A stretch of DNA of 64,000 nt from Arthrobacter woluwensis (GTDB taxonomy: Bacteria; Actinomycetota; Actinomycetes; Actinomycetales; Micrococcaceae), in assembly GCF_030816155.1 (NCBI RefSeq), contig NZ_JAUSXR010000001.1:2790001-2854000 (forward strand). Reading direction: 5' to 3'. This document shows, one piece after another, positions 3,669 through 41,443 of this stretch (position 1 is its first letter; each line of letters starts with the position of its first letter). The notes beneath the pieces were generated by a model. The model ran no database searches. It was not told the DNA's origin and worked only from the letters and a program-made list of their open reading frames with translations. The translations under genes were made by a program, and so were the position numbers.

Positions 3669-4913
3669 ATGCACAAGTGGGCACTGACCTGCTTCGCCGC
3701 GGTGGGCGCGGTCGCGGAGGGCCTCCAGCTCATCGCGCTGATGTGGACCACGCTCCATCTCACCGGCAGCGCCTCGGTGGTCGGGGTGGTGAACGCCTTC
3801 GCCTACCTTCCGGGCGTCATCGCGGGTGTGGCGCTGCGCCGCGCCTTCGACCGCGGCTCCGCGATCACCACCCTGAGCCGGACGAACTGGATCTGCGTGG
3901 CCTTCTCGCTGGCTCTCGCGGCCACCGTCATGACCGGATTGCCGACGGCGGCGCTCATCACCCTCTTCTGCGCCTCGCAAGCGGCCCTGAGCATCGCCAA
4001 ACTCGCCAACAAGAGCGCGCTGGCCCGCGCGCTCCGGCAGATCATCGGACGGCCGGACCTCCCCGCGGTCCAGGGGCGGATCTCCTCGACCACGATCATC
4101 GGCGGCGTGATCGGCAGCGGGGTGTCCGGCCTGCTCCTGGCCCTCGTCGGCGCCGCGTGGTGTTTCGCCGCCGCGGGTGCGCTGTACGCCGTGAGCGTCC
4201 TGCTCATCCGCGCCCTGGGCCGTGGCGATCGGGCGGAGGCGGCCGACGGCGGACCGGCGCGGGCCGTGCGGCCAGGCGCGCCGCAGAGTGGGGCGCCGTC
4301 GTCGGGCGCGGAGGTCTCCGTCATCGGCGCCGAGAGCGCACCGCAGCCCCTCGACGGCGGACGGCTGCTCGCACTCGTGCTCCTCGTCTCGATCCCCAGC
4401 AGCGGTGCACTGCAATTCGTCACCGCCCTCCTGCCCTCCTACGCGAACGCCGTCGTTCCCGGATCCGCCCCGTTCTACTCGGCGCTGGACATCTCCGCCA
4501 TGCTGGGCGGCGTCCTCGCCGGAGCGCTCCTCGGCCCCTCGGCCCGCGTCCGGAGGATGGTCCAGCGCTACGCCCTGGTGACCGGCGGCGTGCTGTGCCT
4601 GCTCCTGGTGCCGCACTGGCCGGCCGTGGTGTCGGTCCTCCTGGTCGGCATCGCCGCCCTGGTCATCACGGCCCACGTGGTCGGCATGCAGATCGCGACC
4701 AACCAGCTGGCCCCGGACGGCGAGATCGGCCGGTACATGGCGGTCCGGAATGCGGGCGCCGGACTCGCCAAAGCCGTCTTCTCGGTGGCCGCCGGAGTGC
4801 TGGCACAGATCGCCGGCGTGCCATCGGCCTGGCTGGCACTCGCGGGCCTCCTCATCGCGGTGGCCGCCGCCTTCAGCCTGAGCCCGGCCTGGCGGAGATT
4901 CACGGCGGCTTGA
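3669..4913 (+). CDS. MFS transporter
   Basis: This 414-residue polytopic membrane protein has about ten to twelve hydrophobic segments in two halves, joined by a Pro/Ala/Gly-rich cytoplasmic loop around residues 190-225. The first half opens with WALTCFAAVGAVAEGLQLIALMW-type packing typical of major facilitator permeases; the second half restarts near LLALVLLVSIPSSGALQF. GGAAGGGG precedes the ATG. Drug or metabolite efflux is plausible, but no motif assigns a substrate. It is followed 65 nt later by the oligopeptidase gene, which has its own promoter. Confidence 0.75.
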   Translation: MHKWALTCFAAVGAVAEGLQLIALMWTTLHLTGSASVVGVVNAFAYLPGVIAGVALRRAFDRGSAITTLSRTNWICVAFSLALAATVMTGLPTAALITLFCASQAALSIAKLANKSALARALRQIIGRPDLPAVQGRISSTTIIGGVIGSGVSGLLLALVGAAWCFAAAGALYAVSVLLIRALGRGDRAEAADGGPARAVRPGAPQSGAPSSGAEVSVIGAESAPQPLDGGRLLALVLLVSIPSSGALQFVTALLPSYANAVVPGSAPFYSALDISAMLGGVLAGALLGPSARVRRMVQRYALVTGGVLCLLLVPHWPAVVSVLLVGIAALVITAHVVGMQIATNQLAPDGEIGRYMAVRNAGAGLAKAVFSVAAGVLAQIAGVPSAWLALAGLLIAVAAAFSLSPAWRRFTAA

Positions 4914-22256: not shown

Positions 22257-22382
22257 TGCGTTAAGCGCCGCGTCATCCCAGGTCACTCACACCGTTACCT
22301 CGGGGTAACGGATGCATTGCGCTCCGGCGAAAGTTACGCCAGGGTCTATCCGGCGCGGCCCGTCGACCCTAAAGTGTGGATT

Positions 22383-40020: not shown

Positions 40021-40311
40021 GTCCCCATCTTGGCACGGAGCGTCCAAGGGGCACGAGGCTCGTGACAGCAAGGGGTCGAGGGGTCGAGCGCCTGAGCAAG
40101 CTGGGGGGGTTGGTTTGAGCACCGGGCCTGAACACGAGGCCGGCCACATTGAGTGCCAGCACCGGGCCCGACCACACGGGGGCCGAGCGTGGCGTGGCAC
40201 GCCGGTCAGGCCAAGCGATCCGACCACATCTTGAGACGCAGGTCACCGACCGTTTTCCCGATTCCCAGGCTATGCACGGGTTCGGTGAAGCCTCTTCACA
40301 ACTTGCCTTCC

Positions 40312-40436
40312 TAGAGTAGTAACTACCTCAAAGGGTGCGAGTGAATCTGCGGATGCGAAAGCGTCCGCACGGAAGTCGGTAGCTGTTCGGGTTTTCCCCC
40401 TGATCCCCCGTTCAGCTGCCGGCTTTCGGTCTTTAA
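40312..40436 (+). ncRNA. Candidate small RNA A with C-rich hairpin loop
   Basis: The 5' block TAGAGTAGTAACTACCTCA is followed by GGTGCGAGTGA (40334-40344). Then comes a perfect 9-bp hairpin with a GAAA tetraloop (40348-40369), then a 16-bp stem (40370-40385 with 40413-40428, three G-U pairs) whose 27-nt loop holds two C5 runs. It aligns with RNA B 277 bp downstream, including the exact 11-mer. No gene follows on this strand, so it should be a free RNA. TAGAGT at 40312 is a possible -10 (RNA start near 40325); I could not find a clear -35. Confidence 0.6.
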
Positions 40437-40588
40437 CGCCGCGTTACGCGGCCCGCCACGCCGGAGCGCCACGCGTCATCTGACATCGTGGACAAAGTAT
40501 TCCCACGTCAAACACGTGTTAAGTGAAAATCGTCGCTTTTCCCAGGGAGTTCCAAGGTAAAAACTGTTGTTTCGGGGAGCTTGAAGAG

Positions 40589-40716
40589 TAAAGTAGTTAT
40601 TGCCTCATGGAGGTGCGAGTGATGATCCAGCCCCGCAAGGGCTGGACGACGCCGGGTAGTGCAAGGAACGTTCCCCCCAAGTGTTCCTTGATCAAGCTAC
40701 CCGGCGTTCGCTCGTT
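40589..40716 (+). ncRNA. Candidate small RNA B with C6 hairpin loop
   Basis: The 5' block TAAAGTAGTTATTGCCTCA matches RNA A at 15 of 19 bases and is followed by the identical GGTGCGAGTGA (40612-40622). Hairpin 1 is an 8-bp stem (40626-40646). Hairpin 2 has an 11-bp perfect outer stem (40649-40659 with 40697-40707), an internal loop and an 8-bp inner stem (40662-40669 with 40683-40690) with the loop GTTCCCCCCAAGT. The only downstream gene is convergent, so it is free-standing. The C6 loop could pair with Shine-Dalgarno sequences. The layout recalls the actinobacterial 6C RNAs, but only one hairpin has C6. Confidence 0.6.
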
Positions 40717-40772
40717 AACGTGCAGGTTCGTCAGCGGGCCCGTGAGTAGGCCCGCCCTTCAACCGCGGGCCC

Positions 40773-40809
40773 CCGGCGGGCCGGGATCGTCACGATCCCG
40801 GCCCGCCGG
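40773..40809. terminator. Bidirectional terminator hairpin
   Basis: CCGGCGGGCCGGGATCG pairs with its exact complement around TCA, 14 nt after the DUF305 gene's stop and downstream of RNA B. It may end both transcripts. Confidence 0.7.
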
Positions 40810-40822
40810 CGACCCCGGACGG

Positions 40823-41443
40823 TCAGAGTCCGGCCAGCAGCTTCTTCATCTCGGCGATCTCCGCGGCCTGATCGGCCACGATCTTGCGGCTCAGTTCCAC
40901 GGACTTCGCATCCTTGCCGTCACGGCTCTCCGTGCGGGCCATGGTGAGCGCCCCCTCGTGATGCTTGATCATCTGCGTCAGGAAGAGCCGCGCGGCGGCC
41001 GTTCCCTGAGCGGACTTCAGCTGCTTCAGGTCCTCGGCGCTCATCATCCCCTCCATCGAGTGGCCTCCGTGATCGGCGGGATTCTCACCCCAGCCGCTGA
41101 GCCACGAGGTGAGCGTGGCGATCTCCGGACCCTGCGCCTTCTGGATCCTTCGGGCCAGGGCCGTCACCTCCGCAGGCAGCCCCTTTTTCTCCAGCACGAT
41201 CCCGCTCATCTCAAGGGCCTGCTGATGGTGCGGGATCATCATGGCGGCGAACATCGTGTCCGCGGCATTGTGGCCACCTTGAGCAGGGGTGCCGGCCGAC
41301 GACGCCGGAGCGCTGGACGCGGACATACTGTGCCCGGGCATCCCGGCCATGTCCCCGCCCGAGCCCCCGGAGCCCGTCGAGCAGGCTGAGAGCAGGAGCG
41401 CGGCGCTGAGTGCGGCCGCCGTGGTGATCAGTGTCTTCTTCAT
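40823..41443 (-). CDS. DUF305 domain lipoprotein
   Basis: A 206-residue exported protein. Signal peptide with lipobox LLSACS (Cys at about residue 21), then a Gly/Ser/Met-rich linker (DMAGMPGHSMSAS). DUF305 repeats contain the His-rich helical motifs FAAMMIPHHQQALEMS and FLTQMIKHHEGALTMA, in a ferritin-like four-helix arrangement. The Met/His content and the position as last gene of a copper operon suggest periplasmic copper binding, which is an inference. It follows the DUF6153 gene by 53 nt. Confidence 0.85.
   Translation of the reverse strand: MKKTLITTAAALSAALLLSACSTGSGGSGGDMAGMPGHSMSASSAPASSAGTPAQGGHNAADTMFAAMMIPHHQQALEMSGIVLEKKGLPAEVTALARRIQKAQGPEIATLTSWLSGWGENPADHGGHSMEGMMSAEDLKQLKSAQGTAAARLFLTQMIKHHEGALTMARTESRDGKDAKSVELSRKIVADQAAEIAEMKKLLAGL

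Follow-up and report, generated by a model that had tools for sequence, protein, structure and literature searches.

Tandem blocks between the proC and DUF305 genes

Two related blocks lie as tandem copies on the plus strand of the window (the whole 64,000-nt stretch of the Arthrobacter woluwensis genome analyzed here), between a gene for a ProC-type reductase (minus strand, 39193 to ~40018) and a gene for a DUF305 protein (minus strand, 40823–41443). TrkH and TrkA genes lie upstream of the blocks, and a P-type ATPase gene lies downstream. The initial annotation had placed the blocks downstream of proC; they are better described as divergent from proC and beside the conserved trkH-trkA genes. 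Its statement that no plus-strand gene follows them holds, the DUF305 gene being the next one 3′ of the blocks; a plus-strand ORF (40607–41389) is present, but it is antisense to the DUF305 gene. The 11-mer GGTGCGAGTGA is common to both blocks at an offset of 278 bp, and the distance between the xCCTC elements (40325 and 40602) is 277 bp, in agreement with the common 5′ segment originally noted. A short hairpin followed by a long one, also proposed at the outset, was found in each block. The features of the two copies are as follows.

40263–40302, plus strand: four 11-bp-phased boxes of copy 1, a putative PhoP site, beginning with TCCCAGG (40263) and GCACGGG (40274)
40285 and 40296, plus strand: boxes three and four of copy 1, GTGAAGC (40285, degenerate) and TCACAAC (40296)
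40312–40317, plus strand: −10 element TAGAGT, copy 1
40324–40337, plus strand: small 5′ hairpin, copy 1 (TACCT/GGGTG pairing), with the probable transcript start
40334–40344, plus strand: conserved leader GGTGCGAGTGA, copy 1
40348–40369, plus strand: hairpin A, copy 1 (nine pairs, GAAA loop)
40370–40428, plus strand: hairpin B, copy 1 (C5 runs at 40396–40400 and 40405–40409)
40432–40436, plus strand: TTTAA, probable 3′ end region, copy 1
40540–40557, plus strand: two recognizable phased boxes of copy 2, TCCCAGG and TCCAAGG, the next two positions being degenerate
40589–40594, plus strand: −10 element TAAAGT, copy 2
40601–40615, plus strand: small 5′ hairpin, copy 2
40612–40622, plus strand: conserved leader GGTGCGAGTGA, copy 2
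40626–40646, plus strand: hairpin A, copy 2 (eight pairs, CGCAA loop)
40649–40707, plus strand: hairpin B, copy 2 (terminal loop TTCCCCCCAAG)
40714–40718, plus strand: GTTAA, probable 3′ end region, copy 2

The C5 and C6 runs that had been assigned to the loop of the long hairpin are present (the C6 run of block 2 at 40673–40678), but the two C5 runs of block 1 sit in a partly paired apical region of the predicted fold rather than in one open loop. The fold energies of the two blocks correspond to z-scores of −4.98 and −4.72, and both beat 200 of 200 dinucleotide shuffles. Copy 2 is separated from the DUF305 gene by a long GC-rich inverted repeat (40764–40815), probably a shared terminator.

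Distribution and structure of the RNA family

Judged from sequence comparison, the blocks appear to be two copies of a multicopy small-RNA family, apparently undescribed, that occurs in most Micrococcaceae. The conservation in relatives on which the initial annotation had staked its reading was found: a sequence-only model of the promoter plus leader matched 111 of the 120 Micrococcaceae genomes and 31 of the 32 genera, with 1–9 copies each. This model was built from 78 sequences, that is, from 85 candidates after the 8 with fewer than two CA boxes had been dropped and window copy 2 restored. Across the order, 11 of 149 genomes matched, nine of them Micrococcaceae and the other two weak (21 and 18 bits). 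Within the family, the model matched none of the six genomes of genus g6 and left three of the six of genus g3 without a match, and the pattern search agreed in both cases. When 59 genomes (A. woluwensis and its relatives) were searched with the DNA sequence, similarity over a whole block was confined to the genus; outside it, clear matches, several per genome in some cases, mostly spanned the −10 element to the end of the leader, and the loci behind these cross-genus matches have one common architecture. Among the matches listed, the pattern scan placed members in Arthrobacter, Paenarthrobacter, Paeniglutamicibacter, Glutamicibacter, Nesterenkonia, Sinomonas, Rothia, Kocuria, Galactobacter, and Zafaria. 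Promoter and leader co-occur in 130 of the 149 promoter-model matches; the remaining 19 include at least four in which the leader is a variant or is offset.

Matches to the leader pattern in distant phyla, among those listed, mostly look like chance, many being without a promoter, and those in 23 IMG/VR viral contigs were taken as chance because none is among the members kept. Two contigs, one titled Sporosarcina (L053) and one from an Acidobacteria metagenome-assembled genome (L106), contain members together with a TrkA 88–93% identical to that of the window, and are therefore probably misassigned Micrococcaceae. In the A. woluwensis genome itself, the model matched the two window copies and, beyond these, a single weak site with the promoter alone (E 0.21). 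At this site (C1:564861–564926; L238 1500–1566), phased CAG boxes without a leader follow the end of a gene, and it may be a further target of the regulator. The bare 11-mer with at most one mismatch is not enriched in this genome (59 sites versus 73 for the reversed pattern), and its other exact occurrences (118195 and 2139549) are not copies, being without the promoter and leader context.

At least one of the neighbor genes of the window occurs in 28 of 67 member loci (mostly 3–8 kb in length), trkA most often, and the placement beside trkA is kept across genera. A tandem arrangement is frequent, with 15 of 27 same-strand neighbor spacings at 168–331 bp. In L104 and L127, a DUF305-type gene lies within ~3–5 kb of the sRNA copies, as in the window, which may be chance.

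Members have, after the promoter, a small hairpin at the 5′ end, then the leader GGUGCGAGUGAUGA and either one or two hairpins whose stems vary greatly; in many members, a U-rich tail follows. Because members were mostly gathered by the exact leader pattern, and leader variants exist, the invariance of the 11-mer is partly by construction; the −10 element was likewise a selection requirement, both for the 85 members used for promoter anatomy, which were picked by leader and −10 element, and for a set of 120 non-redundant members. The transcript probably starts at or near ACCTC, which can form a small hairpin with the start of the leader, with variation on one side of the pairs only. Two hairpins are found in 57 of the 120 members, and CCC occurs in the second loop in 55 of these and in both loops in 13; the restriction of the C-run to one hairpin, as first described, thus applies to the window copies but not across the family. 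In the other 63 members, a CCC loop is present in 45. A CCCC terminal loop, typically UUCCCCCAA, was found in 93 of the 120 members, compared with 8–17 of 120 in eight shuffle sets, and is absent from the remaining 27. The 15 nt that follow the C-loop hairpin contain three consecutive T residues in 57 of 100 members; the corresponding figures are 5 of 99 for stretches 30–45 nt further downstream and 19 of 120 for an upstream stretch, the upstream control being the higher of the two. In L026 and L118, one copy contains the leader (GGTGCGAGTGATGA) twice, back to back, and in L038 and L052 (Rothia) the leader is kept while the phased boxes upstream are unrecognizable. Two reading frames through the leader are open for at least 30 codons in 71 and 81 of the 120 members, respectively (raw counts); a peptide-coding reading is opposed by the covarying stems and by indels that do not come in threes.

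Fifty two-hairpin members chosen from the 120, including both window copies, were aligned. In the consensus structure, 97.9% of cells were paired, compared with 39–51% when partners were slid by 1–3 columns, a percentage biased towards the structure because this was derived from the same alignment as was counted. The double changes are the stronger argument for RNA structure. Changes on both sides were found in 10 of 17 pairs, all within the long stem, and cells with double changes numbered 147, compared with 32 in shuffles; none of 500 shuffles reached any of the five measures. The first 110 nt of the members fold with a median z of −4.97 (below −3 in 107 of 120), whereas the upstream 90 nt used as the control have a median z of 0.06. 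The antisense strand folds well too (median z −3.96), since inverted repeats must fold on either strand. We infer that the stems are scaffolds under selection for pairing rather than for sequence. Both the conservation in relatives and this covariation support the initial view of the blocks as a pair of related small RNAs with C-rich loops, whose stems are kept while their sequences differ, and we are close to certain that the family is a real, selected RNA family.

Phased promoter boxes and the probable regulator PhoP

The promoter consists of up to four 11-bp-phased boxes and a −10 element, TAgaGT. In the 85 members, CAG occurs at −59, −48, and −37 and CA at −26 relative to ACCTC, followed by TAgaGT; the half-site derived from 255 boxes is TC[C/A]CAG[G/C], four of which stand in phase in the consensus. 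According to a published report, PhoP of Mycobacterium tuberculosis binds as a tandem dimer to TCACAGC-N4-TCACAGC, and binding is extendable to trimers and tetramers on proper repeats (PMC4832192). The boxes match this direct repeat, with the same 11-bp period and a position at the promoter. In the window, the match is uneven: copy 1 agrees partly, and copy 2 is strongly degenerate, keeping two of the four boxes.

The A. woluwensis genome yielded 12 Trans_reg_C matches, 11 of them over the cut-off. For one regulator of this genome (L246), the nearest solved structure is that of M. tuberculosis PhoP (E 1e−83), and its recognition helix, DASIVESYISYLRRK, is nearly equal to that of M. tuberculosis PhoP, DVNVVESYVSYLRRK. 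PhoP orthologs were present in all 12 genomes compared, both with and without sRNAs; therefore, the co-occurrence of PhoP and sRNAs is uninformative. A site before the regulator's own gene, that is, putative autoregulation, is a better sign for PhoP. With a weight matrix, a three-box site was found just before the PhoP gene in 9 of the 12 genomes, before a PhoP-like paralog in 2 of 8, and before other OmpR-type genes in 2 of 64, compared with 0 of 84 on the reverse strand. The p-value of 5.5e−7, for PhoP and paralog together versus the rest with gene starts placed by heuristics, is not independent, because the search window was set after the box matrix had been seen. Of the three genomes whose PhoP gene is not preceded by a site, two (G005 and G122) are from genus g3 and are likewise without sRNAs, and the third (G139) has them. 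Conversely, the site upstream of the PhoP gene is present in G035, G008, and G141, which have no sRNAs, so PhoP must have other duties. On this sequence evidence, control of the sRNAs by PhoP or its paralog is likely.

An earlier pattern search for the boxes in ten genomes gave 80 sites versus 58 for the reversed pattern, mostly chance-like, and was replaced by the weight matrix. In a genome from another family of the order (G040; L243 1501–1558), the same phased boxes and −10 element stand just before the start codon of a gene that reads, by eye, like an intradiol dioxygenase gene. Boxes outside the Micrococcaceae suggest that the regulator site predates the sRNA family.

Relation to known RNAs, mode of action and alternative readings

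Neither the window nor any of 16 member loci gave an Rfam 15 match at the gathering threshold; near the blocks, there were five weak matches up to E = 10, three of which overlap the GC-rich palindrome downstream. One of the closest known RNAs, 6C RNA (RF01066), is defined by two hairpins, each with a C-rich loop, whereas each window copy has one C-rich hairpin. Its leader, promoter, and 3′ tail are unlike those of the sRNA family. The initial annotation had already set the blocks apart from plain 6C RNA, and the covariance model agrees, with no 6C match in the window at the gathering threshold, in the block region up to E = 10, or in the 16 member loci. It matched 2 of 37 family genomes under strict filters and with a weak control, one match being over the cut-off, and one of these genomes (G013) also holds the sRNA family. 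Mycobacterial B11 we take to be 6C RNA. The B11 report cites a 6C study for the B11 orthologue, and describes how the C-rich terminator loop of B11 in M. marinum pairs with G-tracts near ribosome sites (PMC12395582). The family discussed here resembles 6C/B11 in being an actinobacterial sRNA with C-rich hairpin loops, but it has another leader, a PhoP-type promoter, 1–9 copies per genome, and usually one C-loop.

Similar arrangements are known elsewhere. The streptococcal csRNAs of the CiaRH regulon are described as two to six small RNAs per genome, variable in sequence and governed by a single response regulator, intergenic and located before a terminator (PMC3091779). Here, too, sRNA genes occur several to a genome and share a regulator-type promoter, but the phylum and the regulator differ, the boxes matching a PhoP-type site, and in the present family the leader is shared word for word and the C-loop is probably the active part. 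Mcr7 of M. tuberculosis depends on PhoP for its expression and is reported to occlude the ribosome site of tatC; according to the same report, it is ~350 nt long, has a 33-nt loop, and occurs in one copy in the M. tuberculosis complex only (PMC4038636). Compared by description, Mcr7 and the family are both linked to PhoP (here putatively) but differ in size, copy number, and range. Ms1, an actinobacterial sRNA listed for Arthrobacter too, lies beside HAD-hydrolase and oxidoreductase genes and binds the RNA polymerase core (PMC9130861); the neighbors here are instead TrkH, TrkA, ProC-type reductase, DUF305, and P-type ATPase genes. Full-text literature on the small RNAs of the group, on C-rich sRNAs, and on the leader word did not yield the family, a search that mostly covered papers outside subscription, so that a description elsewhere is possible; published texts holding the 11-mer look unrelated by title and abstract.

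Taken as a whole, the reading we favor, and rate as somewhat probable, is that of PhoP-activated sRNAs that pair through their C-loops with G-tracts near ribosome sites. The blocks would encode two paralogous small RNAs of ~110–120 nt. The response regulator PhoP would bind the 11-bp-phased boxes and promote transcription from the TAgaGT promoter; the RNA would start at or near ACCUC and end just past the C-loop hairpin, which may double as a weak terminator. The exposed C-run would then pair with G-tracts beside ribosome binding sites, much as the initial annotation had suggested for Shine-Dalgarno sequences, so that translation is repressed or the mRNA destabilized, and the leader would be a common module, such as a protein handle, a second pairing site, or an initiation-region signal. 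By analogy, action through pairing of the C-loop with mRNAs is fairly likely, and we take it as the most likely mode because a C-loop hairpin before a U-rich tail resembles the B11 design.

Candidate targets were sought in 926 start regions of the fetched loci (those from the complement search and from distant phyla left out). G5 runs numbered 42 versus 34 for C5, with no excess over chance, and GGGGGAA occurred four times versus once for its reverse. Complements of the leader of at least 8 nt were not enriched in these regions (8 versus 10 reversed and 1–11 in shuffles); therefore, sites complementary to the leader are a lead only. When 120 genomes were searched, the combination of leader complement, G-tract, and ATG occurred at seven places in six of them, compared with one place for the reversed control. 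One of these places (G119) is an sRNA copy read backwards, and two (G001 and G003, congeners of A. woluwensis) are homologous to each other and count as a single site, whose ATG opens no long ORF. The window has the same site at 22283–22312, TCACTCACACC followed by CGGGGTAACGG, with a mismatch to the leader complement, which is exact in the two congeners. The remaining four places precede ORFs with signal-peptide-like starts (by eye) and represent three independent genes: a surface protein (A. woluwensis and G003), an M28 peptidase (G102), and a 5′-nucleotidase (G103). Before the surface-protein gene of A. woluwensis, the leader complement and G-tract lie at C1:118195–118234 (L375 1501–1540); the same combination before a gene start in relatives is in L374, L372, and L377. 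The leader GGUGCGAGUGAUGA, which persists as the stems vary and occurs in duplicate in two loci, might be a shared handle, either a dock for an RNA chaperone or a site through which mRNAs for exported proteins are paired; for the latter, the three genes with signal-peptide-like starts offer one thin lead. We hold the shared-handle idea tentatively and think it unlikely.

The main rival to C-loop pairing is that the RNAs act on a protein, the leader and C-loop binding an RNA-binding protein that is titrated or guided. The persistence of the leader beside diverging stems, its duplication within L026 and L118, and the lack of enrichment at gene starts, for leader complements as for G-tracts, are consistent with such a role, but it is without a known candidate protein, and C-rich loops of related layout base-pair in M. 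marinum B11 (PMC12395582); we regard it as possible, though rather doubtful. A diverged branch of 6C RNA would account for actinobacterial RNAs with C-rich loops, including the 13 of 57 two-hairpin members with CCC in both. Yet 6C RNA, with no match in the window or the 16 member loci, was found in just 2 of 37 family genomes, and we consider this origin very unlikely.

Two further readings concern the loci rather than the loops. In two Nesterenkonia loci, a copy lies ~100 bases before a small ORF resembling an S4 domain by eye, on the same strand as the ORF (L041 ~4624–4748; L082 ~1070–1171), as would be expected of a cis-acting leader or attenuator of downstream genes. However, no plus-strand gene lies 3′ of the blocks in the window, neighbors vary between loci, and many copies face a convergent gene (ten loci; L104 without a member), which renders cis-action highly improbable. 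A mobile palindromic REP-like repeat without RNA function could explain elements that are multicopy, palindromic, intergenic, and often tandem. REP elements are recognized by a conserved palindromic core; here, conservation resides in the promoter and leader that flank the palindromes, the palindromes themselves diverge with compensatory changes, and the location next to trkA is retained in different genera. The REP-like reading is thus already disfavored, and we give it almost no credence.

These results add an RNA family for a whole bacterial family, that of Arthrobacter, Nesterenkonia, Glutamicibacter, and their kin. To our knowledge, Actinobacteria have no recognized Hfq; if the leader is a protein handle, it may serve as bait for an unknown sRNA chaperone of this group. 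If the shared-handle idea is true, PhoP would control export via several sRNAs that share the handle and differ in their stems. The PhoP two-component system would also be tied to several sRNAs per genome, a wiring comparable to that of the csRNAs and Mcr7.
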